A DNA stretch of 34,028 nt from a virus. A program made the translations under genes and the position numbers. The stretch lies in the IMG/VR virus record IMGVR_UViG_3300025168_000311, positions 1 to 34,028 of that record; one strand, given 5' to 3'. The stretch's first letter is position 1, and every line of letters begins with the position of its first letter. Below the pieces are notes generated by a model that worked only from the letters and a program-made list of their open reading frames with translations, was not told the origin of the DNA and ran no database searches. Below are positions 1-33,778 of the stretch, in pieces.

Positions 1-3000
1 TCTTCCATTAAACTATAATAGATATGTCCAGCTTCGTGAATTATATCTGTTTGTGCTACTGAGTCTATATTAATAAATACAGTAGCTCCTATAGCCAAAG
101 AAGAGGCTTCTTCACCAAAATCAGTTAACAGTTTGTCGTATGTTAATACGCCTTTTGCTCCAGGAAACTTTTTATTAACTATATCTTTAACTATAGATGA
201 CGCTATAACGCCAGAACCATATCTATATAATGGTCTTATATCTAATGTAGTAGGCTCGTAATTAGGTATTTCTTTTTGTATTCTAGTAAGGTATTTTTTA
301 ATCTTTTCTTTAGATTCTTTTACAGCGCCTATTAATTGATCTATTTTACGTTTATCTTTCTTCTTAGCTTTTTTAGTAGGACCTTTATCTTTAAAGTCTC
401 GTTGAGCTACCTTACCTACAACCTCATCGTTTATAACAACTTGTATTTCAGTTTCATATAAATTATTATCAAATTGAAAATATAGTTTACCGTCTACTTC
501 AACAATGCCTTCTTGTCCTTTAACTGGTTTTATTAAACGTAACTCAACATTAGCATCTTCATCTAATACATATTTATCAGAAATATTATCAAAGTCTCTG
601 TATTGAATAGTTTCTCCTTCTGGAGTTTTAATAAAGTAATTGGGTCCTGTACCTTTTTGTATGTCAGCTTTTTTTATCTGACGAGCACCTTTTTCTAAAC
701 TTTCTTCTGTAGTTTTGTATTCCTTAGTTTTTGGAATTATCTGACGTTGGTCTTTTTTTTTTTCGTCTTTGTCAGACTCTTTAGATTTTTCTTTAGATTC
801 AGCCCTCTCTTCTTTCTTTGCGGCTTTATCTACATCTCCTCTATTAATAATTTTATTAATACCTGTACCTACTATAGTGGCAACTGTTGATGCTGCAATT
901 TTACCAGCTTCTAATAATTTTACTAAATATTTTTTTGCAGTAGGAGTTATTTCATTTTTAGTATAATCTTTAACTTTTTTTATAGCCTCTTTAGTTTCTG
1001 GTGATTGTGCTTTACTAAATAACCCTTTAACACCTTCTACGGCTTTACCTCCTAAATCTTTAACTGTTTCTAAAATGCCAGTTTTATCTTCAGCTTTTGT
1101 TTTAGCTTCAGCTTTTTCTCTTTCAGTTTTTTGCTTTTCACCTTCTTGTGTAAGAGTTTCAAATTCGTCTTTTGTTAATCCTTTTTCTTTAAATCTAGCA
1201 TCTCTTTTTCCAGTAGATTTAGCTACAGGAGCTTGATCTACCTTAGCTGTATATATATCTTCTATGGATTGCTCAACACTTGCAAGATCATTATTTAAGG
1301 CTTCTAGCGTTGCATTGTGTTGCTCTTCTAAAGTTTTTAATTTAGCTTCTAATTTTTTCTTATCCTTAATAACAGATTTCTGATGTTCTACTGTTTCATT
1401 ATACTTTGCTGTCTCATCAGCTATTTCTCCTTCTTTACGAGTTTTAACCATTTCTAGGTTAAATGCTCTTTCTGCGCCTGCTTCTGTAAGAGAACTATTT
1501 ACATGATGTGTTTCATAATCTCTTTCGGCTAATTCAATTCTAGCTTTGTATTCTAATCCTTGCTCTTCAGTGAGTTTATTATCTTTAACTAAATTATCTA
1601 CAATAGACATAGCAGCAGAACCATCTCCTGAATAATTCCAGATATTAGATGCTAATAAATTATCTATAGCTTGTTCATATATTATAGATTGTTCAGCAGT
1701 CATATTGCCTTCATTGTTAGAAAGCATATCTATTACATTGTTATAAGCATCTATCTTTTTATCAGTAAGATGTTTTCTTTCAGCAGCAGCATCAAAGTAA
1801 CCTCTAGCTCCACCCATAGCACCTCCTAATCCTACAGAAGACCAAAATATATCTCTTAACTCAGGTCTTTCTTTTCCAAATGGAGCTTCCTTAAGCCAAG
1901 ACATTGCAGAGTCATAACCTTTATTATTAGCTTGTTGTATGTTTTTATATTTAGCCCACTCTTGATACACCTCTTGGAATCCTTCTGTTATTCCTTCTAC
2001 ACTTGCATATGCCGCAGCAGCAGGTAAATTAGGAACTACATTTCTTAACAACATTCCCGTAAGGCCTTTCATGTTTTGAGCAAATGGTGTTTTTGTAATT
2101 GGATTTCTTAATACCTTGCCCATTAAACCTCTACCAGCACCTCCAAATAATATACCATATTGAAGCATATCTACTCCCATCCATTTAGCATTGTCCCCCA
2201 TAACACCAGCGGCATGTTCTGCTGCTTCTTCTGGGGTAAATAACGGATTACCATTATCATCTACATCATTAGCCATTTCTTGATATGCTTCTCCAGCTAA
2301 ATAAGCTCCTTCAAATAAATTGGCTGTTGCACCACCACCAATGTATCCACTTATATTTCTTGCAAGTTTAGTAGGAGCGTATCCTGCCTTGCCGAGATCA
2401 ACTCCTAGTTTTCCTAAAGCTCCTGTTCCTTTTACTCCTTTAAATCCTTTTGTTCCAGCGCCTGTTAGTTTTACTCCTTTAGCCATATTACCAAACATTC
2501 CTGATTTAGATGCATACTTTAAGGCTGTAGGGCCATATCTCCCAAGTAATCTTCCTGCAGTTATAGATCCTCCAGCATATGGTATTATAAATGATGCAGC
2601 ATAAGGAACAAGTCTTGATATTTTAGAAGACCAAAATTCTCCTTTAAACATATCTTGCCAAGTTATATCTTGTAAGTCTTCAGATAATACTAAAGCGTTT
2701 TCTTTTTGGTATTCTGTTCCTACTTTTTTAAGGTAAGAACCTACGCTTGTAGTTAAGTCTCCTTCTCCTGGAGTAACTAAAGCAGAAACAAAATCAATTG
2801 CATCTCCTGTTCCAGAAACTAAATCACCCCAACCAGCTTTTAATCCTCTTTCTACTCTTTGTCCAGGAGAACTAATCATCTCAGCAGGATCTACAAATTG
2901 TTGATCAGGTGCGCTACCATAACGTAGTCTATCTTGTTCAGCGTATTGTGCATCTTGCATACTAGAAGCTCCTGCTCCTCTCGCATAAGCATCTAAGGCT

Positions 3001-3173
3001 GGATTTTTTACAGGTGTAGTTTGTACACTTGACAATAATTGATCAAAACTAAGCTGAGCTACGTCTTTTTCATTATCATACTGTTTTATTAACTCTTCAG
3101 GAGATGATGTTATTGAAGGTATTGCGTCCTCTCCAAATGATATTCCAGAATCAAAACTATTATTTTCTGCCAT
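1..3173 (-). CDS. Giant internal virion/cargo protein with zinc-metalloprotease motif, 3' end beyond window
   Basis: The minus strand is open from an ATG at 3173-3171 to the window edge with no stop, giving at least 1057 residues. The start overlaps the stop of the upstream gene as TAATG, which supports it. Residues ~185-300 are rich in Gly/Ala and hydrophobic residues and could contact membrane. Near 393 is EGITEGFQEVYQ, an acidic helical stretch like those in large ejected virion proteins. Residues ~570-640 look like a coiled coil, and ~780-815 form a Lys/Glu/Asp linker containing an A11 run on the coding strand (753-763 on +). Just before the edge, at bases 24-38, the frame encodes HEAGH (residues 1046-1050) in the context TDIIHEAGHIYYSLM, a classical HExxH zinc site. 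The third metal ligand would lie outside the window. By its place at the end of the structural block it is probably an ejected cargo protein. The reading frame is certain and the protease call is good; the role is inferred. Confidence 0.85.
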   Translation of the reverse strand, partial: MAENNSFDSGISFGEDAIPSITSSPEELIKQYDNEKDVAQLSFDQLLSSVQTTPVKNPALDAYARGAGASSMQDAQYAEQDRLRYGSAPDQQFVDPAEMISSPGQRVERGLKAGWGDLVSGTGDAIDFVSALVTPGEGDLTTSVGSYLKKVGTEYQKENALVLSEDLQDITWQDMFKGEFWSSKISRLVPYAASFIIPYAGGSITAGRLLGRYGPTALKYASKSGMFGNMAKGVKLTGAGTKGFKGVKGTGALGKLGVDLGKAGYAPTKLARNISGYIGGGATANLFEGAYLAGEAYQEMANDVDDNGNPLFTPEEAAEHAAGVMGDNAKWMGVDMLQYGILFGGAGRGLMGKVLRNPITKTPFAQNMKGLTGMLLRNVVPNLPAAAAYASVEGITEGFQEVYQEWAKYKNIQQANNKGYDSAMSWLKEAPFGKERPELRDIFWSSVGLGGAMGGARGYFDAAAERKHLTDKKIDAYNNVIDMLSNNEGNMTAEQSIIYEQAIDNLLASNIWNYSGDGSAAMSIVDNLVKDNKLTEEQGLEYKARIELAERDYETHHVNSSLTEAGAERAFNLEMVKTRKEGEIADETAKYNETVEHQKSVIKDKKKLEAKLKTLEEQHNATLEALNNDLASVEQSIEDIYTAKVDQAPVAKSTGKRDARFKEKGLTKDEFETLTQEGEKQKTEREKAEAKTKAEDKTGILETVKDLGGKAVEGVKGLFSKAQSPETKEAIKKVKDYTKNEITPTAKKYLVKLLEAGKIAASTVATIVGTGINKIINRGDVDKAAKKEERAESKEKSKESDKDEKKKDQRQIIPKTKEYKTTEESLEKGARQIKKADIQKGTGPNYFIKTPEGETIQYRDFDNISDKYVLDEDANVELRLIKPVKGQEGIVEVDGKLYFQFDNNLYETEIQVVINDEVVGKVAQRDFKDKGPTKKAKKKDKRKIDQLIGAVKESKEKIKKYLTRIQKEIPNYEPTTLDIRPLYRYGSGVIASSIVKDIVNKKFPGAKGVLTYDKLLTDFGEEASSLAIGATVFINIDSVAQTDIIHEAGHIYYSLME

Positions 3174-5232: not shown

Positions 5233-7929
5233 TTATTCTGTTACGTCTGCGCTATTGTCTATAATTTTTGTATACTGCGTACTTGGATCTAAAGCATCTG
5301 TATTAATTTCTGTGTCTGAACCTTGTTTTTTAAAAAAACTATCTACTAATCCGCTTACATTTATATTATTTAATCCTGATATTGTATTTGTAAATGCTGC
5401 AGCAGCAAACCCAGAAGCGGCTTTTTTATTAGCAATTTGTCTTGCTACGTCTTCAGATCTTTCTTTTTCTGTTTGCTGTATTTCAAAATTTTCTTTAAAT
5501 AAAGCCATTTTTTGATATTTTTCAGCATTTTTACTTTGTAACTCTGCATCTTTTACTGCGTAGTCTAGTAGTGCAGAAGAGCGTTGCGCATCTAAAACAC
5601 CTGACTGCGCTAAGAATCTAGCTCTTTGACCACTAGAACCTCTTACAGCGTTTTCTAAACCCATTTGATAAGACTTATCTAGTTCTTTTCTAAACTTAAC
5701 TTCTTGGTCTGGGTGAAATCCTTTTTTAGATAATTCTTTTGCTTGTCTAAGATGAGACATAAACATTGGTGATAATTCAGCACTAGCTTGTGGAGTAATT
5801 TTTTTCATTGCAGCTGTTAAGCCTTTTTTACCCATTATATATGAAACAATAGCTCCTGGTCCACCTATAGCGTCTATAACTCCAGCAGCCCCTTCTAGCA
5901 ACCCTTTTCCTAGTGTAGCTAAACTTTTTCCTGGTGTTTTTCCAGAAACTACTTCTTCTTGTGTATCATCTTCAATAGTTTCAGGTTCTACGGCATCTAC
6001 ATCATATAAATCAGTATTACTTAATGTTGATAAAAGTGGATCGTCTTGAACATTGTATGTGAATCCTGTCTGAGCTTCTTCTTCTTTTCTGTCTTCTACT
6101 CCTTTACTAAGCCTTCTTTGGGCAATAAGTTGTGCTTCATTATTTTCATAAGGAGCCATAGAACCATCCTCATTTAATATCAAATAATTACCAGCATTTT
6201 TATCCTTTGGATCTGATTGAGGATTTTGTACCCATTTATAACTATTCTCTCCTATTTTTATGGTTTCTCCTCTTTGTAGATTATCATCATCATATACGTC
6301 GTCCCAATTTTGATAAGTTTTAACTCCTTGCTCTTGAGAGTCTTTTTCTCTTTGTAAATCTTCTACTTCTACATCTTCTCCAATAGGTATGGTTATTTCT
6401 TCCCCATCTGGACCTAGTACTGTTTGGTTTTGCGGAGCTGATTGTACTATCGTTTCTTCTTCTTGAATAGTTTCTTCGTTCTTTTCTTTGAACTGTTTTA
6501 ACTTTGCATCAGCTTCTGCTTGTGCAATTTGTTTTTCAGTTTCTTGAATAGTTTCAGTAGCGCTTTGATCACTAGCTTCGTCACTTTCATCTGTAATGTT
6601 TAAAGCTAAAGCAGCCTTATCTAAAGCTATTTGTTCTTCCTCGGTAAGACCTTTATTGGCTTTCCTTTTTGTTAAATTATCATAAATTGTTTGATTAGCT
6701 TCTTTCTCACTACGTCTTCTTCCACTACGTACTTCTGATTGATCTACTTTATCACTAGTATCTATATCAGCTTCTGGATCACTAGTATCTATATCAGCTT
6801 CTGGAGTATTATCTATGTAATCAGGATTGGGTTTATTACTACCAGGTAAAAATTCTGGATTAACACCTACAGTAGAATCATTTATAAGAGATGGGCTGCC
6901 GTCAAATAAATCTTCAGTTTCTCCTGTTACTATATCATGCGGAGCATAAGTTTGACGTGAACTTTCATATTTATAATGTTTATTTCCTACTTTTATTATA
7001 TCTCCATCTTTGTGTGATTGAGGTGCAACTTTACTCCAATCATCATACTTACCTTTTAGTTCTGAATCAGGAAGAGTGCTTACGTCATTTTCATCTATAG
7101 TAATGTTGTATTGATTATTTTCATTTTTAAATACAGTATCAGCTTGTATAGTCATTGATTCATTACCAGCATTAGGATTAGTAATATTATGCAAAGAATC
7201 TATAGCGCTTGCATCTCCTATTTTTATCAGTTCAATTTTTTCAGGTGATATGTAATTTTTAGAATCTGGGTTAAACATACCTTTCGCTTCAGCAAAAGCT
7301 ACTAAAATTGATGCTGAGTATCTTTCGTCTGCTGCAAGTTCTGGATTTTTAACTAAATCTATATCAATACCACGCTTATTTAATATTTTAGTTATTTTTG
7401 CATAATTTCCTTTTCCTGTCAACTGAACTCCCCCTCTTCCTATATATTTTACACCATCTCCAGGTTCATTGTTGCCATTCCTTCCATCATAAGCTAAAGA
7501 AAATAATTTACTTTGTCGTTCAGCTATTGCAGCTTTATCTAGAGGATTACCTAAAGCATCTTTACCTTGAGCAGTATGAAGACTTCTCATATAATTATTT
7601 GTGCCTACAGGAATTATCTTTTTAAAAATTTTTCCTTTCCTTTTGTATTCTACCTCTACACTGTCTCCTATAATATTGCCTTCTTTATCTAGCCACCCAT
7701 TTTTAACAGCATGTTTACCAAAAGTTGATCTTGGATTTAATCCTTTTCTTCCATGCCCTCCCCATGAGTAAAGCATAGTATCCCATCCATAATGCATATT
7801 TTCTGTAGCTGTTCCACTTCTACTTTCAACGCCATTAAGTATATATAAAAGTCTTATTTGGTCATCAGTAAGATTAAGTTTTTTACCCTCTCTTGCTATT
7901 TGTTTTCTAAAGTTTATTGGTGTTGCCAT
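5233..7929 (-). CDS. Virion-associated lysin: N-terminal GH19-type (chitinase/lysozyme) domain on a large internal virion protein
   Basis: The protein has 898 residues. Residues ~20-250 resemble glycoside hydrolase family 19 as used by phage endolysins: VESRSG at 34-39 with E35 as candidate catalytic acid, ENMHY at 43-47, and the family signature NNEPGDG...YIGRGGVQLTGKGNY at 153-176. The likely role is local cleavage of peptidoglycan at infection. After it come two similar ~26-residue W-x-x-V...G-x-x-IKIG...YKW units (297-322 and 541-566), an acidic linker with an exact nine-residue duplication (376-393), a small hydrophobic segment (~672-705), and a helical C-terminus rich in Gln/Lys/Ala. 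This architecture, far longer than a free endolysin (~200 residues), argues for a structural, ejected enzyme rather than a lysis protein. It starts at a TAATG overlap with the preceding gene. Enzyme family call fairly sure; virion location inferred. Confidence 0.85.
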   Translation of the reverse strand: MATPINFRKQIAREGKKLNLTDDQIRLLYILNGVESRSGTATENMHYGWDTMLYSWGGHGRKGLNPRSTFGKHAVKNGWLDKEGNIIGDSVEVEYKRKGKIFKKIIPVGTNNYMRSLHTAQGKDALGNPLDKAAIAERQSKLFSLAYDGRNGNNEPGDGVKYIGRGGVQLTGKGNYAKITKILNKRGIDIDLVKNPELAADERYSASILVAFAEAKGMFNPDSKNYISPEKIELIKIGDASAIDSLHNITNPNAGNESMTIQADTVFKNENNQYNITIDENDVSTLPDSELKGKYDDWSKVAPQSHKDGDIIKVGNKHYKYESSRQTYAPHDIVTGETEDLFDGSPSLINDSTVGVNPEFLPGSNKPNPDYIDNTPEADIDTSDPEADIDTSDKVDQSEVRSGRRRSEKEANQTIYDNLTKRKANKGLTEEEQIALDKAALALNITDESDEASDQSATETIQETEKQIAQAEADAKLKQFKEKNEETIQEEETIVQSAPQNQTVLGPDGEEITIPIGEDVEVEDLQREKDSQEQGVKTYQNWDDVYDDDNLQRGETIKIGENSYKWVQNPQSDPKDKNAGNYLILNEDGSMAPYENNEAQLIAQRRLSKGVEDRKEEEAQTGFTYNVQDDPLLSTLSNTDLYDVDAVEPETIEDDTQEEVVSGKTPGKSLATLGKGLLEGAAGVIDAIGGPGAIVSYIMGKKGLTAAMKKITPQASAELSPMFMSHLRQAKELSKKGFHPDQEVKFRKELDKSYQMGLENAVRGSSGQRARFLAQSGVLDAQRSSALLDYAVKDAELQSKNAEKYQKMALFKENFEIQQTEKERSEDVARQIANKKAASGFAAAAFTNTISGLNNINVSGLVDSFFKKQGSDTEINTDALDPSTQYTKIIDNSADVTE
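6751..6804. repeat. Perfect 27-bp tandem duplication inside the GH19-domain gene
   Basis: Two identical 27-base units (6751-6777 and 6778-6804) lie in frame and encode PEADIDTSD twice. The duplication sits in the acidic linker, where length change is likely tolerated. It looks like recent slippage or unequal recombination. Confidence 0.9.
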
Positions 7930-9119
7930 TATGAGTACATATCATTAGACTTCCATTTATTAATATTATTTTTTACTACTCCTGATATCTCTTTATCAGT
8001 CATAGATAATTTAAATTGATCTGTAGCGTGATCGTAAATACCAGCACCTTTTCCTACTTTAAAAGGAAGAGTTCCTCCTCCTGCATATATATTACCTTTT
8101 TTATCTACAGGCATTGGGTTATTTTTGTGTGTTTCTGGACCAGGAGTTATTTTTCCCCCATGCATAGCTTTTCTAATACGGCTTGCTACACGAGCATCAT
8201 TGCCTTGTGCTAAATCTTTTTCTAAAGCATCTTGATCATTTACAATTAATTCATTGCCTGTAAATTCAGCAACTATATCATCATTCATTTTCATTCCTTG
8301 ATCTGCTCTATAATTACCTCCATACTGATTGCCATATCTAGCCTCTCTTTGATCATACATTTTAGCTTGTTGCGATGACAACATTTTATCTCTTTGTTCT
8401 TGTATAGCTTCTTCTCTAGATGTATAAATGTCTCCTGTCTGTTTATTTACATCAGCTATAGCCTCTTTTTGTAATTTTTTTGCTTTATCCCCCTTTTTTT
8501 TATTAAAGAAACGTCCTAACAATAAACCTCCTATTAATAACCCAGGATGCATACCAAACATAGGATTAGCTCCTGCGCCTATACCAGCTAGTTTACCTAG
8601 TTGTCCTGCAGCCATTGCTGTTGAAGCTAATGTTCCAATTTTTTCTGTTTGCGTATAATCATATGGATTTTGATTTTGTGAAAGGCCATACACAGCTGCA
8701 GCAGGTCCTAAATCAAAATCTCCAGCCTCTAAGCTTACTTTGCTTTTTTGGGCTGCTAAAGGGTTTGCAGCATTAAATTTATCCGCATACATATGTTGCA
8801 GATTTGTGCCAAACTTTTGCAAACTAGGAGATAGTTTAGCGCCTAAGCCACCGAATTGCAATCCTTGCATTCCTTGCATCATTAAATTTTGTCCTTGGTA
8901 AGGTTTATAATCAGAAAACTCTGACATAGGATTTTCAATTTCAGGAGTATAAGAATAAATATTTCTAGCTGATAATGGTGTATATGCACCTGAAGATTGT
9001 GGGTTTAATCTTGGAGGTCCAAAATTTTGACCCTGCATGTTGTTAGAATTATTAAAATATTTATTCATTGCATTAGGACCAACTAGGTCATAAGCGTTTT
9101 TCATATCAAGATATCCCAT
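7929..9119 (-). CDS. Structural/cargo protein with GMKM and YGG motifs
   Basis: This encodes 396 residues. The first ~130 are rich in Asn, Gln, Tyr and Gly and probably disordered. Residues ~160-205 are hydrophobic and Gly/Ala/Leu-rich (AGIGAGANPMFGM followed by LLIGGLLLG), a possible membrane-inserting segment, followed by a Lys-rich helix to ~260. The C-terminal part carries NQYGG...DQGMKM (264-278), EFTGNELIVND (285-295), a TPGPETHKNNPMPV block (325-338) and IYAGGGTLPF (344-353). The last blocks look like a conserved module seen in phages of Bacteroidota (recalled, not searched). The GMKM/YxGG elements recur in the 105-, 555- and 661-aa proteins of this window. It begins 10 bases after the giant nozzle gene and ends in a TAATG overlap with the lysin gene. 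Function unknown; a virion role is likely from context. Confidence 0.85.
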   Translation of the reverse strand: MGYLDMKNAYDLVGPNAMNKYFNNSNNMQGQNFGPPRLNPQSSGAYTPLSARNIYSYTPEIENPMSEFSDYKPYQGQNLMMQGMQGLQFGGLGAKLSPSLQKFGTNLQHMYADKFNAANPLAAQKSKVSLEAGDFDLGPAAAVYGLSQNQNPYDYTQTEKIGTLASTAMAAGQLGKLAGIGAGANPMFGMHPGLLIGGLLLGRFFNKKKGDKAKKLQKEAIADVNKQTGDIYTSREEAIQEQRDKMLSSQQAKMYDQREARYGNQYGGNYRADQGMKMNDDIVAEFTGNELIVNDQDALEKDLAQGNDARVASRIRKAMHGGKITPGPETHKNNPMPVDKKGNIYAGGGTLPFKVGKGAGIYDHATDQFKLSMTDKEISGVVKNNINKWKSNDMYS

Positions 9120-23598: not shown

Positions 23599-24603
23599 TT
23601 ACTCGCTCATGAACGCTTTAGGATCAAACGAACCTGACTTCACTTTGAAGTTAGACTTGCCTTTTCCTGAGTTAAGGTTTGGTGAGACTATACTATCCAT
23701 AATAGCGGCTTTGCCGTCTTCCAACCCTTGAGAACGAAGAATCTTTTCAATTTGCTTACGATAGAGCATAAACATAGCAACATCAGCAACATTGGCATGA
23801 TCTTTATATATTTCTTTCATCATATCGCCTGTAGCATATCTATAGACTTCTTCTTTCTGTTTTTTTGTTACTTTCCCTCCCATGAACTCATTCATGTTTT
23901 TGATTTGATTTTTTAATTCTTTTTTTGCGTTTTCTGTTTCTTGCTTTCTTTGATTTGCTGTTTCTTGAGCTTGATGTTTAGATTGTGCTGTTTGTTGATC
24001 AATAGCATTATTAATAACTCTTCTAATGCTTTTAGCCTTCATCTTCATCATGCCAGAATCTTCTAATTTATCTAAAGACTCTTCTATTTCTGAATCTTCA
24101 ATACCATCAGCTTTTAATTCTTCAGCAACTAGATCTCTATCTGAAAAATTTAAATAAGATCTAAGTTCTGTTGTTTGATCATTAACTGGCGCTTCTTTCT
24201 GCTCTGCTTTTTGCTGCAATGCATTTAATGCTTGTACAAATTGATCTTTAGATTCTATTTTAATTCCTAGCTCTTCACCAACTTTAGCCCAATTTAGAGA
24301 TTCTTGAGCAGTAGGAGTTTCTTCTGTTTCTATTGTTTTATCATCTCCATCCCAGTCATATTTATCTTCTTCTTTTACTTCTTCTTCTTCTTTTTTAGAA
24401 TCCCAAGCCCAACTATCTTCATCTAACTCTTCAGTGTTGTCCTCTTTTGATTCTACTGTTTCATCTAGACCTTCTTCTTTCTTTTTTTCACTTGCACCAT
24501 AAGTTTCATCTCCAGCAAACGCTAATGGATTAAACTCTGGTTTAGTTTCTGTAGTTTCTGCTGATTCAACAACATCATCTACTAATTTTGATTCTTCTGC
24601 CAT
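23599..24603 (-). CDS. Scaffold-like capsid assembly protein
   Basis: This encodes 334 residues. The first ~110 are extremely acidic and disordered (long Glu/Asp runs, DEDSWAWDSKKEEE). The middle (~115-290) is helical, with Gln/Glu/Lys-rich coiled-coil stretches, and the last ~35 are basic (GKGKSNFKVKSGSFDPKAF). Acidic, helical proteins with a basic C-terminal tail between portal and major capsid genes are typically internal scaffolds whose tail docks to capsid. A -7 box and the shared GGGAGTATTAA leader element lie just upstream. No protease domain is visible. The call rests on composition and order. Confidence 0.75.
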   Translation of the reverse strand: MAEESKLVDDVVESAETTETKPEFNPLAFAGDETYGASEKKKEEGLDETVESKEDNTEELDEDSWAWDSKKEEEEVKEEDKYDWDGDDKTIETEETPTAQESLNWAKVGEELGIKIESKDQFVQALNALQQKAEQKEAPVNDQTTELRSYLNFSDRDLVAEELKADGIEDSEIEESLDKLEDSGMMKMKAKSIRRVINNAIDQQTAQSKHQAQETANQRKQETENAKKELKNQIKNMNEFMGGKVTKKQKEEVYRYATGDMMKEIYKDHANVADVAMFMLYRKQIEKILRSQGLEDGKAAIMDSIVSPNLNSGKGKSNFKVKSGSFDPKAFMSE

Positions 24604-26978: not shown

Positions 26979-28796
26979 TTAATTTATTTGTAGAGGGACA
27001 CCATTGTATCCCATCTTGTAATATTTAAAACCTATATCTTTTACTTCTTCTTCCCTTGCACTAGCTTGCATTCTGTAATTATCTATATTATGAATAAGAC
27101 AAAGACCAAATGCCATAGCACGGTCTGTATTTTGTAATCCATAATTAGCAAGTTCGTCTATTAAATCTAAAAACCATATATCTTGAGCTCCTTCTCTTAA
27201 GTAATCATCTATTAAATCTTCCATTAAAGATTTTACTTGTTTATTCATATGCACACCATATCTGTTTCTCGTTTTTGTCCCAGGGTTGTGTGCCGACTCT
27301 GGTTTTTCTTTTAAATACTTTAGTGCATTCATACGTTTAAAGTAATCTAAAATACCTATTTTTGTATATTCAACTAACATCTTTGCATTGTAATATACTG
27401 CAAGTTTTAAACAGCCATCCCAAAAATCTTCTTTCTTTTTAGGTCTATCTGTATATTCCGCAATAACATAATCACTTGACATGTCAGTATTTGCAAATCT
27501 ACGATAAATTATTGCACTACCCAAAGAATCTGATGCTCCAGCTTGATCTTGGTCATAAGAGTCAATACCTCCTATATCTAAATTTTTATAATCTAGATCA
27601 GGATGTGTTAGTATTTTGTATGGTCCTGTAGGATGAGGTCGCCACTTTATAGATGGTTCTCCATCTCCTAACTCCCAGTCTAAATAACCTTTTTGTATTT
27701 GACTTCTATTATCCTTGCTAGACAATATTCTTGATCTTTGTGCGTTTAATAGAGCAATATCAAATCTTGCTGAGTGCGTATTTAAGAAAGCTTCTTCTAC
27801 AGTAAGTGGATAATTTTGTATGTGAAGGTTATAAGCTTCATTGTCTCCTGACTTTTGTATGTCTTCTCTATCATTAATAAGTTTTTCTCTTGCTCCTTTT
27901 TCATCTTCCTTTCCGTTATCTATATCAAAAAACCCGTAATAAGCTTTTGATGCTGGAATAAACATAGGTATAAGATTATACGCATCATGACTGTAATACA
28001 TATCCATAAAATCTTTAGAAGCTTTAGATATATCTCCCCCTGTACCTCCAACGATAGGCACACCAAACTGTATATCTCCATCCATAAAACAAGCTTTAGA
28101 TGACATATATGCATTCTTAAGTTTTTTAAACTCTCCTGCTTCTTCAAATATCATAAGAGAAACTCTTTCACCTTTAAATACTTCTGGGTTATCCATTGTT
28201 CTACAAATAATATTTGATTGGTATCCCCCTATTTCCCACTTACCATCTTTATTTTTTTGTTTATACCCAGACCTCATTATGCCATCAGTGTCTTTTAATA
28301 CTGAATGTTTAAAGTTTGGATGTATACCATTAAGACCTTTTCTAGTTTTATCAAAGAACGCATCTGCTGTCACCTGCAAGCCTGCGGCTACACCTACATC
28401 ATTAAAAGGATAAAAAGTATACTCGTGAGCTACTGCCCCAGAGTTCATATAAGAAAACCCTTTATCTCTGGCTTTTATAACAATCATACCTTTCCCCTCC
28501 TCTTTGCATAATTCTATAGTATCAAAATACTCATGATCCATATTTCTATACCAAGGATGTATTAAGGTTTTACGATTACCTGTAGTACCATCGTTACCTA
28601 GTATTTTATAGTAGTTTAAATAAAAATAATACTTACCAGATATCTTTTTCATACCTTTAGGCTTAAACCCATTTATACACCGATCTGTTTCTTTAGCCCA
28701 GTATTCTTGATAAGCTACAGAATCTGGGTTTAAATCAGGATGGCCCAATTTAGGTACAGGACGGTATCTTTGTGGGTCAAACTTAATTTTACCCAT
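26979..28796 (-). CDS. terL: Large terminase subunit (packaging ATPase/nuclease)
   Basis: This encodes 605 residues. The N-terminus (YYFYLNYYKILG, 56-67) is typical of terminases from phages of Bacteroidota. The ATPase region has a degenerate Walker A-like segment KARDKGFSYMNSG (108-120), lacking the GKT/S of classical P-loops, a Walker B VSLMIFEEAG (212-221) and a VGGTGGD motif (249-255) after it. The nuclease (RNase H-like) half starts with IGGIDSYDQD, D412 being the first metal ligand, followed by further acidic positions. The protein cuts concatemeric DNA and drives it through the portal. It overlaps the 72-aa gene by 8 bases and ends 4 bases before the portal. No small terminase was recognised nearby. 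Confidence 0.88.
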   Translation of the reverse strand: MGKIKFDPQRYRPVPKLGHPDLNPDSVAYQEYWAKETDRCINGFKPKGMKKISGKYYFYLNYYKILGNDGTTGNRKTLIHPWYRNMDHEYFDTIELCKEEGKGMIVIKARDKGFSYMNSGAVAHEYTFYPFNDVGVAAGLQVTADAFFDKTRKGLNGIHPNFKHSVLKDTDGIMRSGYKQKNKDGKWEIGGYQSNIICRTMDNPEVFKGERVSLMIFEEAGEFKKLKNAYMSSKACFMDGDIQFGVPIVGGTGGDISKASKDFMDMYYSHDAYNLIPMFIPASKAYYGFFDIDNGKEDEKGAREKLINDREDIQKSGDNEAYNLHIQNYPLTVEEAFLNTHSARFDIALLNAQRSRILSSKDNRSQIQKGYLDWELGDGEPSIKWRPHPTGPYKILTHPDLDYKNLDIGGIDSYDQDQAGASDSLGSAIIYRRFANTDMSSDYVIAEYTDRPKKKEDFWDGCLKLAVYYNAKMLVEYTKIGILDYFKRMNALKYLKEKPESAHNPGTKTRNRYGVHMNKQVKSLMEDLIDDYLREGAQDIWFLDLIDELANYGLQNTDRAMAFGLCLIHNIDNYRMQASAREEEVKDIGFKYYKMGYNGVPLQIN

Positions 28797-29007
28797 ACTT
28801 TAATTTTTTAGTTTTGCCTAATCCAAACATACCGTATTCTTTTTCTCTTCTTTCTAACTTAGCATGATATTTGTCTCTTAAATCTACGCCGTGTAGTTTT
28901 AAAGATAAATTATTATACTTTTCGGCCTTAATTAAATCAGCTCTCTTATAATATTTTTTATAAGAATTAAACAAATACTGTAATTCGTATTTCTTTTTTT
29001 CAGCCAT
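28789..29007 (-). CDS. Small basic protein before the terminase, unknown
   Basis: This encodes 72 residues and is very Lys/Tyr/Leu-rich, with helices (LQYLFNSYKKYYKRADLIK, LRDKYHAKLERREKEYG) and a Lys-rich end. The start overlaps the stop of the 105-aa gene (TAATG), and its end overlaps the terminase start by 8 bases. It could help terminase, but no helix-turn-helix or other small-terminase feature is visible. Confidence 0.7.
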   Translation of the reverse strand: MAEKKKYELQYLFNSYKKYYKRADLIKAEKYNNLSLKLHGVDLRDKYHAKLERREKEYGMFGLGKTKKLKYG

Positions 29008-29324
29008 TAATCATGTTGAGGTCTAAAAGACCCACCTTTACCATAGGCAGTCTTCATCCCTTTATTAGCTTTTTTCTTAGCCCCAACTATTCTGTCGGCA
29101 GCTGTTGCTTTTGGGTTGTTGTCATATCCAGCTTTTACACTTAACATTCCAAACTGACCTCCTTTGTTATATTTTTTTTTCATTTTCATACCATAATTTG
29201 CTTGTGCTGTTTTAGCAGCGTTATTAAAATCACTATCAGAAGGTGCGCCTGCATCTCCTTTTTTTCTCATTGTTTTTCCACTTTTTCTTTTTGCGTGGAT
29301 ATTTGCATATAAACCTTTTTTCAT
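29007..29324 (-). CDS. Small basic phage protein with KGLYANIHAKR start and GMK/YxxGG tail
   Basis: This encodes 105 residues, strongly basic. Residues 3-12 (KGLYANIHAK) with a following GAPSDSDF block resemble a short conserved protein family of marine phages and some large viruses (from memory, function unknown). Here the usual extended RKRI/GSGE part is shortened. The C-terminal half has two copies of the GMK...YxxGG motif: YGMKMKKKYNKGGQF (44-58) and GMKTAYGKGGSF (90-101). The same motif occurs in the 555-aa protein, with parts in the 661- and 396-aa proteins. It sits 2 bases from the 176-aa gene. A DNA-associated or virion-internal role is possible, given the charge. Confidence 0.75.
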   Translation of the reverse strand: MKKGLYANIHAKRKSGKTMRKKGDAGAPSDSDFNNAAKTAQANYGMKMKKKYNKGGQFGMLSVKAGYDNNPKATAADRIVGAKKKANKGMKTAYGKGGSFRPQHD

Positions 29325-29326
29325 AA

Positions 29327-29857
29327 TTACATTTCTTTAATTTCTTTTCTTCTTTCTAAAAATGATAGCCCTTTATCTCCAGCTATCTTTTGCCTTTCTC
29401 CTCTTCTATCTATAGCATCTAAAAGAGACTGTCTTGTTTTTAATATCTTTTCTACTCCTATCATTAGCTTTTGCAACATCTCTGCATTCTCTTCATCAAG
29501 ATGCATACCATCTATTAAAGCAGTGAACTGATTAATCTTTTTATTAAAAGCTATAAGCTGTTCGTCTAATGGGTCAAATTGCAATTCATTATATTTGTCG
29601 CTAGCAGTTTTTAATGCGGGATCTTTTGTCCCAATCCAATTATACGTATCATACAAATCTTTAGATACAGCTTTTACTCTTTCATTTTCACTATAATGTC
29701 TGTATGGGCTTTCGTAGTCGTAGACTAAAGCAACCCATTTGAGGGCCGTAGGCCCGAACTTTTCTTTTTTAATGAGTGTAAGAAATTCTGGCACTCCAGT
29801 AACTCCGTCATCATCTTTAAATATGTCTCCTTTTCTGTTTAGGTTTAATAAATACAT
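29327..29857 (-). CDS. Conserved helical protein before the terminase, unknown
   Basis: This encodes 176 residues. The N-terminal half has FGPTALKWVALVYDYESPYR then HYSENERVKAVSKDLYD, a pattern I recall from phages of Bacteroidota near the packaging genes. The C-terminal half is helical and charged (LIAFNKKINQFTALIDGMH, MLQKLMIGVEKILKTRQSL, ending RRKEIKEM). Size and position would suit a small terminase, but no DNA-binding motif is apparent, so I leave it unassigned. Starts and ends are tightly coupled with its neighbours. Confidence 0.7.
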   Translation of the reverse strand: MYLLNLNRKGDIFKDDDGVTGVPEFLTLIKKEKFGPTALKWVALVYDYESPYRHYSENERVKAVSKDLYDTYNWIGTKDPALKTASDKYNELQFDPLDEQLIAFNKKINQFTALIDGMHLDEENAEMLQKLMIGVEKILKTRQSLLDAIDRRGERQKIAGDKGLSFLERRKEIKEM

Positions 29858-30129
29858 TATTTTTTATATTTAAGTTTTATCTTAAACACGTATCTTAGCT
29901 GATCAATACCATCAGTGCTAAAATTATTTATTATAGTTTCTATATAATAGTTTGGATTTTTTTCTACAACCCAATTACTTTTTATAATTTTAAATCCATG
30001 TTTTTTTGCTCTTGCTTTAATTATAGGTTCTTGTTCTATAAGCCCTCCTAAATCATCAAATATTTTTTCAAGATAATAAAAATCATCTTTATGATATATC
30101 CTTCCTAAGTCTTCGTCTAATTTTTTCAT
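29857..30129 (-). CDS. Small protein, unknown (start set by ATGA overlap)
   Basis: This encodes 90 residues from the ATG at 30129, which overlaps the stop of the lysozyme-protease gene as ATGA. A longer reading to 30204 is possible, but its first 25 residues would lie entirely within the end of that gene and look unlike protein (Cys-rich, MVCSDKKDITLCLGNGTCC). The protein has a helical start and an IETIINN...LRYVFKIKLKYK beta end. No family recognised. It also overlaps the 176-aa gene by one base. Confidence 0.7.
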   Translation of the reverse strand: MKKLDEDLGRIYHKDDFYYLEKIFDDLGGLIEQEPIIKARAKKHGFKIIKSNWVVEKNPNYYIETIINNFSTDGIDQLRYVFKIKLKYKK

Positions 30130-32111
30130 TCTTGTAATGTTGTTGCGGCAACAGGTGCCATTCCCCAAGCATAAGGTAATGTCTTTTTTATCTGAGCATA
30201 CCATTTTTCACTTCCCCACGGGGCTCCTTTCATATTTTCTAATAACTGCCTTACATCAGAAGGAAATTTTTCAACTTTTGTATTCCATGTAGTTCTTGCA
30301 ATAATATTATCAGTTAATCCTTTTGCTGTACCGTCCCAACCATTTTTCTTTAAAATTTCTCCATATCGTACCATTCTAACTTGTTGTTCTGCGGGGTCAT
30401 TAAGATATTTAGCAAATTTTTTATCTCCTGGAACCTCCATTTTAACAGCAGGATAATTGTCATAGAGTTTTGCATAATCATCTTCCCAAGCTTGCCATTT
30501 TGGATTTGTATCAAAATCTAAATCTTTTGTATAGGTCTGCGCCTCAGTATCTGTTAATCTTTTACCAGATTTTTTATCTTTCCATAAAACATTAGTATGT
30601 GGATTAGCATTTTGTGCAGTTCTATTTACAGGACTTAAAAGATGATTCACCTCATGATCAATAGTTCCAAGTATCTCTTCATAAGACATATCTTTATTTA
30701 TTTTTACACCTTCTGAACCATAAGTACCTTTTATATTTTTACCTAAATCTCCTTCTTTGTACATTCCCATAGTTGTGTTGTCTAATTCTCTTAAATATGT
30801 ATCAATATGAGCTTTAATCTGATTAGGGCTTTCGCCTGTATTTGCTGCTCTTTTAGTTATATATTCATCACTTAATAAATATGTTTTTCTTTTTAATACT
30901 ACATTTTTTATTTCTCTAGCTTTATACGTATTAATATTAGCAGTGGATGTAGGTACAGGAGGTTTGTCTACTAGTTTTAGATCAGTCACCTTTATATTAG
31001 GGTCTAAGGTTTTAGTTTTTGGTACACCGCCTTTAGTTATCCCTGGTATTAAACCTTTAATGCCTTTATACCCCTTCATAAGAGGACCTAAAATAGCATC
31101 ATCTATAAGTCCTGGAATTCTTAATCCTTTTGCTGTTAAATTAATTCCTTCTAAAACAGGGATGGGAGTGGCGGCACCTAACCAGTGTTGAGCATAATCT
31201 TGAGATGCTTGTTTCTGCTCTGGACTAACATACATTTGATTAGATGCTCCTGAAATCCATTGGTTATAAGGATTGTTTCCCATTAAAGGATTATAAATTG
31301 TTCCACTTGTGCTACCAAACTGATCAGCCCATGGCACTTCTGGAGCAATCGGTATATTAAATTGTGGTTGCTGTACATAAGTGGCATCTGATTCAGCTGT
31401 AGGTAAATGAACACCTCCATGATCGTATTCTTCAACTAAAGATGAATCTTGAGCTCCAAATATACCATCTAATATATCTTGAACTTGTGGAAGTTTATTT
31501 ATATTATTAGAATCAGATAGATAGGGAGCCATGTTTTGTTTATACATTAACTCTTCTTCTCTTGCTTTTAAAGCTTCAGTGGAGTCTTTATGTGCCATAC
31601 TCTTATTAAAAGAGTCTAGTTTTATTTGCTTTTGTTCTTCAGTGGCATCACTTAATCCCACCCAATGCTCTTTTTGCCAAAAGTCACCATAGGATTGTTT
31701 ACCAGACCATATATTACTAAAGTTAGATTCTGTTCTCATTCTGTGATTACCTAAGAATAGCATCTTTTGTTGATTTGCTGTAAGTTTAGTAGCATCAACA
31801 TTTTTATTAAGACCTTTGATATCAAGAAGCCATTTAGGAGAATCTACATCAACAGATTCAAAATAGTTGTGTAATCTATTGGCAGCTGCATTACCACCTC
31901 TTCCTTCTCCTGCTTCAAACATAAACAAACCTCTACCATATCCATCTTTTTTTCCAGTATTAGTTATTTGCCTAGCTTTAGGATCCATTCTTTGTTCAGG
32001 ACCTGTTTCGTGATATGCAACATAATCCATAAGCTGGTTATATTGCTGAGACGTACCTCCTTTATCTCTTATGATAAGTTGCATTAATTCGTTTAGATCT
32101 ATTTCATCCAT
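30126..32111 (-). CDS. Lysozyme/transglycosylase-like domain fused to a zinc-metalloprotease domain
   Basis: This encodes 661 residues. The N-terminal ~170 look lysozyme-like: YHETGPEQRMDP (33-44, E35 as candidate acid) and GYGRGLFMFEAGEGRGGNAA (57-76) parallel the catalytic Glu and Gly-Leu-Phe/Met segment of transglycosylases. A Pro/Asn/Gln-rich linker follows and includes EYDHGG (228-233) and a hydrophobic stretch (~310-365). Residues ~440-600 form a predicted metalloprotease: IDHEVNHLL (484-492), with H486 and H490 as zinc ligands and E487 as base, and NDPAEQQVR (571-579) with E575 as candidate third ligand. The protein may open cell wall and cut a protein partner, either on entry or in capsid maturation. 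It starts at a TAATG overlap with the 555-aa gene. Both domain calls are by motif; the fusion is seen directly. Confidence 0.85.
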   Translation of the reverse strand: MDEIDLNELMQLIIRDKGGTSQQYNQLMDYVAYHETGPEQRMDPKARQITNTGKKDGYGRGLFMFEAGEGRGGNAAANRLHNYFESVDVDSPKWLLDIKGLNKNVDATKLTANQQKMLFLGNHRMRTESNFSNIWSGKQSYGDFWQKEHWVGLSDATEEQKQIKLDSFNKSMAHKDSTEALKAREEELMYKQNMAPYLSDSNNINKLPQVQDILDGIFGAQDSSLVEEYDHGGVHLPTAESDATYVQQPQFNIPIAPEVPWADQFGSTSGTIYNPLMGNNPYNQWISGASNQMYVSPEQKQASQDYAQHWLGAATPIPVLEGINLTAKGLRIPGLIDDAILGPLMKGYKGIKGLIPGITKGGVPKTKTLDPNIKVTDLKLVDKPPVPTSTANINTYKAREIKNVVLKRKTYLLSDEYITKRAANTGESPNQIKAHIDTYLRELDNTTMGMYKEGDLGKNIKGTYGSEGVKINKDMSYEEILGTIDHEVNHLLSPVNRTAQNANPHTNVLWKDKKSGKRLTDTEAQTYTKDLDFDTNPKWQAWEDDYAKLYDNYPAVKMEVPGDKKFAKYLNDPAEQQVRMVRYGEILKKNGWDGTAKGLTDNIIARTTWNTKVEKFPSDVRQLLENMKGAPWGSEKWYAQIKKTLPYAWGMAPVAATTLQE

Positions 32112-33778
32112 TAGAATCTACCGCCTTGTGTATATGTTTTTTTTCTTTTTCCTGATATTCCATCAGCACTCATTATTGTTTCTCCACGAATTCCTGCTGC
32201 AGTTTGCGCATTATATTCGTCCATGCCTTCCGCAAGATAAGCTCGCTGATCGTATGGATCTAAATCATTATAAGGAGTAGATTGCCCATAAAATTCGTAG
32301 CCACTTCCATACAATTTTTGACCAGTTTCTGAGTGAATACTGCCACCATGATTATATTGATCTACTTTCATTCCATAAGCAGCTTTAGGATAATTTTCTG
32401 GATTACGTTCTCTGTGATCATATCCTTTTTCTTTCATATCAAGATGGTCTTGTAGTTTGTCAGCCATGTAAGATTTTCCTGTTTTAGGACTATACATCAT
32501 GTGTGGTTTAAATTTACCGCCTTTAGCCAACATCATGTTGTTTTGATTTATCATACTTGACTCAGCTATAGCGCTGCCTTCAGCATTGTCTATCAATTTT
32601 TTTAGCTGACCCATAGCTACAACTTGATTGATAGTACCTCCCATCATACCTAAATCTTTTACGCTAACAGGCATCGTTTGATTATTAGGCATTTTCATTC
32701 CTTGGTTAGCATAGTCTAATTCATCATCTACGTTAGGTGTCACATATGGATTTTCTTTATCTCCCACCCAATTTCCATCAATTGATTTATCTGGCTTCGT
32801 GTCTTTAACATTAGATAAACCACTCTTATCTTGTGATAACCCAGACAGTTCTCCTGTCTTTATATCTCTCTCTGTTGTGTCTCTTTTTAAATTACCCTGG
32901 TCTGCTTGTCCAAAATCTAATTCAACATCTCCTCCTGAAAATAAATTGCTTAAAGCATCAATTCCATATTGCAACCCTGTAGTAATAGGCTCTCCTACAG
33001 CTCTAGTTATATCACCAACAGTTCCCATACCTGCTTTTACTCCTTGAAAAGTACCTTGTATAACATCATCAGCAGCTCCAAATGCTGCATCACCTACTGC
33101 ACCTACACCTTCTCCTATTGCAGCTCCTGTAGATCCTACTACATCACTAGCTGCACCTAAAGCATCACCAGCAAGATAGTCTATTCCACTTGTAAGTCCA
33201 CTCCCAATAGTTTGTGTAAGATCCCCAGCTGCACCTGCCGCATGCTTGAGCATATGAGATGCACTTGCTTTCCAGTGATATTCAGGAAGACCAGTATAAG
33301 GATTAATAGTTCCACTACCACCCATAGCCTCTAACATTGCAGCTTCTTGAGGGTTAATATGGGAAAGTTGAGAATCTCCTCTTCTTCCCAAGTTTTGAAC
33401 TTTCATCATTTCAGAAGGACTTAACTGACCTCCTTGATTATACTTTCTACTAGCTGTAGAACTACCTCCAGGATTCAAATTAGATGAATGTAAACCAATT
33501 CCAAGCCCAAATGATTCTCTTTTAATACCTTCTGGTCTACCAGCATTACCATGATCCTGATTAAAAGGTGTTACATTATAATCACCACCATGATTAAAAG
33601 ATGTTACATTCGCACCCATGTAAGGATTTAAACCAATTAACGCATTAGCATCCATATTGCCTTCAACAGACTGAGAGCCTCCTCCTGAACCTGCAGCTGG
33701 TCTATCTCCAGTCACTGCACTAGCTGATATTTGGTTCATTGCGTCAAACAATGATTGTAAGTTTTGATCATCCGTCAT
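32111..33778 (-). CDS. GMK/YxxGG-motif protein with 11-residue amphipathic repeats; first gene of the structural transcript
   Basis: This encodes 555 residues. The N-terminus has FNHGGDY (61-67) and KYNQGGQLS (112-120). Residues ~194-281 show an approximate 11-residue periodicity of Gly/Ala/Val-rich amphipathic units (for example DALGAASDVVG, STGAAIGEGVG), which may lie on membrane or form a helical bundle. The C-terminal part has ANQGMKM (357-363), LAKGGKF (417-423), a block with MMYSPKTGKSY and DHLDMKEKGYDHRERNP, AAYGMKVDQYNHGGS (466-480), and the very end YTQGGRF. Six motif copies make it the richest in the window. It begins 22 bases after a -7 box and is the promoter-proximal gene. Function unknown; an internal, membrane-active or cargo-tethering virion protein fits. 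Confidence 0.82.
   Translation of the reverse strand: MTDDQNLQSLFDAMNQISASAVTGDRPAAGSGGGSQSVEGNMDANALIGLNPYMGANVTSFNHGGDYNVTPFNQDHGNAGRPEGIKRESFGLGIGLHSSNLNPGGSSTASRKYNQGGQLSPSEMMKVQNLGRRGDSQLSHINPQEAAMLEAMGGSGTINPYTGLPEYHWKASASHMLKHAAGAAGDLTQTIGSGLTSGIDYLAGDALGAASDVVGSTGAAIGEGVGAVGDAAFGAADDVIQGTFQGVKAGMGTVGDITRAVGEPITTGLQYGIDALSNLFSGGDVELDFGQADQGNLKRDTTERDIKTGELSGLSQDKSGLSNVKDTKPDKSIDGNWVGDKENPYVTPNVDDELDYANQGMKMPNNQTMPVSVKDLGMMGGTINQVVAMGQLKKLIDNAEGSAIAESSMINQNNMMLAKGGKFKPHMMYSPKTGKSYMADKLQDHLDMKEKGYDHRERNPENYPKAAYGMKVDQYNHGGSIHSETGQKLYGSGYEFYGQSTPYNDLDPYDQRAYLAEGMDEYNAQTAAGIRGETIMSADGISGKRKKTYTQGGRF

Follow-up and report, generated by a model that had tools for sequence, protein, structure and literature searches.

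A shared C-terminal ending on small basic proteins of marine crAss-like viruses and its possible role in capsid loading

Why should several late proteins of one virus repeat the same two short strings, GMK and an aromatic residue followed closely by two glycines? The question was raised by a 34,028-base IMG/VR record (hereafter the window), for which a sequence-only reading had proposed that a bipartite GMK...YxxGG motif is shared by unrelated proteins of 105, 555, 661 and 396 amino acids. All the late genes of the window are on the minus strand, as are all the window features whose coordinates are given below. The virus is crAss-like by its terminase, portal and major capsid protein (MCP), which match phrog_6681, phrog_6547 and phrog_11589, and by its tail ring proteins (Pfam CrAss_Ring_1, E=9.5e-21; CrAss_Ring_2, E=2.2e-8). 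Its terminase large subunit (TerL, 26979..28796; phrog_6681, E=4e-92) adjoins the island of small genes that will concern us most. We found no close isolate, as the window TerL is <60% identical to those of all phage records, with a best value of ~31%. The host of the group is presumably a marine member of the Bacteroidetes.

Relatives were sampled in two rounds. The first used terminase similarity to collect eighty of them and included the reading of ten contigs (43-67 kb, the longest being 65-67 kb). A second scan, for which the query terminase was ~62% identical to that of the window, returned 80 loci. The loci were fetched by TerL similarity only, without reference to the C-terminal tag described below.

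The recurring motif and the modular proteins that carry it

All the motif strings listed by the sequence-only reading are present in the ORF translations of the named proteins, and they exceed chance. When each of 24 window proteins was shuffled internally 5000 times, the composite GMK.{0,6}YxxGG, observed 3 times, had an expectation of 0.005 and was never found 3 times in a shuffle (0/5000), while [YF]x[KHQR]GG was observed 8 times for 1.07 expected (0/5000 shuffles reach 8). The loose halves are mildly enriched by the same procedure (GMK, 6 vs 2.0, p=0.017; [YF]xxGG, 13 vs 6.0, p=0.008). GMK alone was dropped as a signal, given its weak enrichment and a chance copy in the terminase (aa 48), which we did not count as motif. 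The four proteins do not contribute equally: it is the 105-aa and 555-aa proteins that produce the signal, whereas the copies in the 396-aa protein (p=0.18 and 0.34) and the YDHGG of the 661-aa protein (p=0.055) are not significant when taken alone. Homologues keep the motif, since the composite occurs 27 times across 11 genomes for ~2 expected, nearly always in genes upstream of TerL and in the 396-aa family.

Several copies are in the 555-aa modular protein, the first gene of the late operon (32111..33778). FNHGG (aa 61-65, 33584..33598) stands at the end of the conserved N-terminal domain, whereas YNQGG (aa 113-117, 33428..33442) and GMKM (aa 360-363, 32690..32701) are respectively at the left and right edges of an exchangeable module, LSPxE..GDTxLAH. 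Further on lies GMKVDQYNHGG (aa 469-479, 32342..32374), a copy that in relatives is the C-terminal GMKMKKRYTNGGRF, and the protein closes on YTQGGRF (aa 549-555, 32114..32134). This family keeps a (Y/F)xxGGR(F/I/L) end, mostly GGRF and rarely GGRI or GGRL, though the sequence upstream of it changes. The 661-aa protein (30126..32111) has an N-terminal HETG domain found in all relatives and a C-terminal HEVNH metalloprotease-like domain found in some; its YDHGG (aa 229-233, 31413..31427), which is YDNGG in the G009 homologue, lies between the two.

The 396-aa protein, putatively of the ejection or cargo type (7929..9119), carries QYGG (aa 265-268, 8316..8327), GMKM (aa 275-278, 8286..8297) and YAGGG (aa 345-349, 8073..8087). 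These copies are conserved in relatives, with YGG (266-268) invariant in 10 homologues, as well as G275 and K277. Relatives G006 and G007 have an SLT transglycosylase domain between two motif copies, and the G007 homologue matches both SLT (PF01464, E=2.1e-12) and the internal virion protein phrog_342 (E=3.6e-12); the window copy is without SLT. The insertion of this domain between motif copies (L125:2961-4529 and L123:11637-13205) points to an ejection protein. At the equivalent place, G002 and G005 have the central module of the 555-aa family, so that the description of the motif carriers as unrelated was partly wrong. The module concerned, LSPxE...GDTxLAH..GGSGTxNPxTGLPEY, moves between the 396-aa and 555-aa families and has its edges at GMK/YxxGG (L107:8713-10836 and L119:16237-18288).

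[YF]xxGG marks junctions between exchangeable modules in these large ejection-type proteins. The ends of shared segments fall at ≤3 aa from [YF]x(1-2)GG in 201 cases for 65 expected, and near GMK in 53 for 15, counts in which the ends are mutually non-independent and where the extension of alignments through the motif may add to the excess. Of 111 dipeptides compared in this respect, KM, MK, MP, GM, QG and GG come out on top. All three large proteins resemble modular ejection proteins. An AlphaFold2 model of the 396-aa family (mean pLDDT 45, with a partly confident C-terminal domain) had no fold match in the PDB by Foldseek, and the 396-aa protein itself matched no PDB sequence. Another very long late protein, cut by the window end (3-3173), has a conserved HEAGH metalloprotease motif, and its relatives are single ORFs of 2406-4100 aa.

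The C-terminal tag, its distribution and its bodies

The motif of the sequence-only reading is real, but it is only half of a better-defined C-terminal element that had escaped notice. At the level of sequence, the best-defined element is [YF]-x-x-G-G-x-[ILM]-Q-[HL]-D-COOH, often with GMK before it, rather than GMK...YxxGG. The 105-aa basic protein of the window (29007..29324, net charge +19) has it in full. It starts with a GLYANI-type module (GLYANIHAKRK, aa 1-42, 29199..29324; phrog_16028, E=1.3e-13), common to marine podoviruses and cyanophages and untagged there, followed by a first motif copy, GMKMKKKYNKGG, which is conserved in relatives (aa 45-56, 29157..29192), and by a second copy that forms the complete tag, GMKTAYGKGGSFRPQHD (aa 89-105, 29010..29060).

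Two untagged genes border this tagged gene. On one side, a conserved 176-aa protein (29327..29857) closes the island; on the other, a 72-aa protein (28789..29007) separates the tagged gene from TerL and has a KYG ending that overlaps the TerL start codon. The position of the latter gene suggests that it encodes the small terminase subunit. All 51 distinct sequences of this family end in (K/R)YG and the gene overlaps TerL by 8 nt, so that the start codon of TerL probably dictates how the protein ends.

The same ten-residue ending, Y-x-x-G-G-x-x-Q-H-D, is common to dozens of small basic proteins of marine crAss-like viruses, most of which end in [YF]xxGG, one to a few residues, and then QHD or QLD. 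We searched for it with a pattern that fixes Q at -3 and D at -1 and allows six residues at -2, His being one of them; the aromatic at -10, the GG at -7/-6 and the Ile/Leu at -5/-4 are independent of the pattern. Positions -10, -7, -6, -5, -4 and -2 carry 1.7-4.1 bits, and only -2 belonged to the search pattern. Pooling the two clades, 118 of 1677 distinct genes end in Q-[HLFKYN]-D, all on the terminase strand, and encode proteins with a median length of 92 aa and a median net charge of +18. These have about 26 body families, as separated by BLAST after removal of the tag, among which some lysine-rich bodies could be distant relatives; they include GLYANI, DACYxKV, DUF6321, FKEDW-TPSG, KLPxxVR, EF-hand-like and other types. 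The aromatic-glycine half, [YF]xx(x)GG just upstream of the last residues, is found in 22 of 26 tagged representatives and in 9 of 788 untagged small genes.

Tagged genes lie mainly in this variable island beside the terminase, and the tag is nearly absent from other genes; in all the sets examined it is C-terminal, never N-terminal. Across the 11 genomes, 23 of 661 genes end in Q[HLFK]D, each of which encodes a short protein (50-154 aa). The tagged proteins of the island have net charges of +13 to +33. In the clade of the window, all 55 distinct small proteins encoded in the interval from the 176-aa gene to the terminase end in Q-x-[DSA], the 72-aa terminase neighbour excepted. By gene list, the island genes other than that neighbour are tagged in 12 of 12 cases in the 7 genomes that are unpermuted and whose island was recognised, a count that leaves out G004, whose contig is permuted through the island, and G006-G008, whose terminase was unrecognised. 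The second clade has 59 tagged genes among 785 distinct ones, all on the TerL strand, of 48-167 aa and with 21 body families; their endings are mostly YxKGGIIQHD-like. The tag comes in dialects such as IIQHD, RxPQHD and YRQLD. Ten representative bodies of this clade gave no convincing match in Pfam or PHROGs, and no Q-x-D endings were found in crAss001 or phi14:2. Two loci are worth describing. On a related contig, five small basic tagged proteins, ending QLD, QYD, QHD, QHD and QYD, are encoded at the opposite end of the late operon (L161:7054-10942), and a tagged 56-aa protein with an EF-hand-like loop, DKNKDGKLSGIDF (Pfam E about 0.03), is encoded in L081:854-1024.

Several tagged bodies belong to the families of known marine phage modules, namely DUF6321 (PF19846), GLYANI (phrog_16028) and DACYxKV (phrog_727). 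Where read in other phages, these modules stand by themselves or form part of larger proteins, in either case lacking the C-terminal tag. For DUF6321, the protein of pelagiphage HTVC027P stops after RIRQARRRWKC, whereas that of G001, 84% identical to it over residues 2-95, continues into ADGGKMPSNLFRQLD. The tag was thus appended to a complete protein. The GLYANI protein of HTVC168P likewise stops, untagged, after KTAKKR, and those of T7-like marine phages are also without the tag. Pelagiphage HTVC027P has an island of small basic proteins of its own (L216:980-3291), flanked by the GroES gene and by a long late gene in a portal-like position; its members include DUF6321 proteins and others that contain KKGG, all without the QHD tail, and it may represent a parallel system in pelagiphages.

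A proposed capsid-loading tag and its alternatives

What could such an ending do? We lean, with modest confidence, towards a C-terminal capsid-loading tag that would work like the N-terminal capsid targeting sequence of T4, because the diversity of the small basic proteins, their one shared end, their head-gene neighbourhood and the free exchange of bodies match the logic of the T4 and encapsulin systems. The free tail would dock on a common partner in the assembling head (scaffold, portal or capsid lumen), and each tagged protein would be co-assembled into the prohead, carried with the DNA and perhaps injected. Bodies could be exchanged freely while the tail is kept, and the internal aromatic-x-x-GG copies of the 396-, 555- and 661-aa proteins would be flexible module junctions. 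Judged by its charge and by where its gene lies, the first partner to consider for the basic tagged proteins would be an acidic protein encoded between portal and MCP (23599..24603; net charge -29, with -33 in its N-terminal half), a probable scaffold on the same grounds. In marine phages, the untagged versions of the tagged-body modules lie between the scaffold or portal and the MCP genes, and a DUF6321 protein is called 'structural protein' in two cyanophage records.

The idea of a packaging or tethering signal was already part of the sequence-only reading. Genomics supports it by a common tail on ~26 kinds of small basic late proteins, nearly absent elsewhere, an element that the reading had not seen. 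A possible, if doubtful, extension is a plug-in system, in which this C-terminal delivery tag would make head cargo of any small protein and the fast-changing island on the TerL side would stock DNA-binding or anti-defence proteins for injection. If the tag is a loading signal, it would provide a simple sequence test for virion-borne phage proteins of unknown function, single out dozens of proteins that may be injected by a phage group widespread in the environment, and offer a short C-terminal handle to bring foreign proteins into crAss-like capsids.

The alternative that survives best, though we regard it as unlikely, also involves a tail that binds a common partner, but in the infected cell, where it could for example hold small late DNA-binding proteins to the terminase, or to some phage structure, while packaging proceeds. 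It would suit proteins that are small and basic and an island that is directly beside TerL, with genes often overlapping the next start by 1 nt. However, other phages have the untagged versions of the modules in their head-assembly clusters, and the tagged genes of L161 are remote from TerL, where the late operon has its opposite end.

Cleavage is improbable. A maturation protease of the phage would cut after YxxGG, freeing the tail or separating the modules, which is consistent with the presence of the motif at module junctions and with the conservation of the HEAGH motif in the very long late protein. Yet conservation is highest just past the GG, in QHD or RF, which is unusual for a discarded piece. 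The metalloprotease of the 661-aa protein, one of the processing enzymes that the sequence-only reading had in mind, is an unlikely candidate, as that domain is missing from the 225-242-aa versions of G001-G004 whereas the motif stays. The suggestion of a processing site is thus a weak one.

We give as little credit to a flexible linker, rich in glycine and of lysine-rich low complexity, that drift and recombination would have multiplied and that would have no specific partner. This may explain the internal motif copies, as [YF]xxGG lies between domains and also occurs in small proteins of other marine phages, e.g. MYKKGGSVKKKK in HTVC027P. Within one genome, copies from different proteins have slightly more codons in common than expected (105 of 187 identical vs 86), an excess that fits such repetition, although at this level the copies are not fresh DNA copies. 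A linker leaves unexplained the fixed distance to the stop codon, the Q-H-D and the near absence of the ending from all other genes.

Finally, we rejected a DNA-level signal at gene ends (translation coupling or a recombination site), which would fit the 33 of 67 tagged genes that overlap the next start by 1 nt and the KYG ending that the neighbouring 72-aa family apparently owes to the TerL start, but which is largely refuted by the position of the next start, anywhere from -8 to +80 nt of the tagged gene end, and by the free synonymous variation of the tag, where CAA and CAG (Q), CAC, CAT, TTA and CTT (H/L), and GAT and GAC (D) are all used. This variation shows that selection acts on the protein.

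Comparison with known systems

Our literature search returned nothing relevant on GLYANI, on DUF6321 or on a described C-terminal encapsidation peptide of phages. The closest parallel within the crAss-like lineage is gp45 of crAss001 (cargo protein C1), a proven virion cargo. It resembles the 396-aa protein in being a modular late protein with aromatic-GG punctuation, encoded right after the muzzle protein. It has 9 [YF]x(0-2)GG for 2.5 expected (p=0.0015), the strongest enrichment of ten crAss001 proteins tested, and its segments resolved by cryo-EM (214-245 and 425-552) lie between such sites. However, gp45 is without the GMK motif and without the QHD tail, and an hhalign comparison with the 396-aa family covered only a hydrophobic stretch and a helix (E=0.0014, probability 17%). 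The same comparison of that family with phi14:2 gp081 gave no clear homology.

Family 1 encapsulins use short C-terminal peptides to direct unrelated cargo proteins into a shell of the HK97 fold (PMC8346489). The likeness extends to gene order, as encapsulin cargo is encoded beside the shell operon and the tagged genes are in the head and packaging operon. The shells of encapsulins are non-viral and take one or a few enzyme cargoes by a peptide of other sequence, whereas here the tagged proteins are many, small, basic and of phage origin.

The capsid targeting sequence of T4 is N-terminal and is cleaved off by the prohead protease. The internal proteins of T4 are diverse and have in common only a short conserved sequence at one terminus, by which they are loaded into the scaffolding core; their lysines contact DNA, and at least one of them, IPI*, is injected and acts against a nuclease of the host (PMC3012670). 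In both cases one short sequence is common to unrelated small proteins, here of 26 body families. The tag described here differs in being C-terminal, of unrelated sequence and from a crAss-like lineage. If it is a loading signal, it would be the C-terminal counterpart of the T4 capsid targeting sequence.
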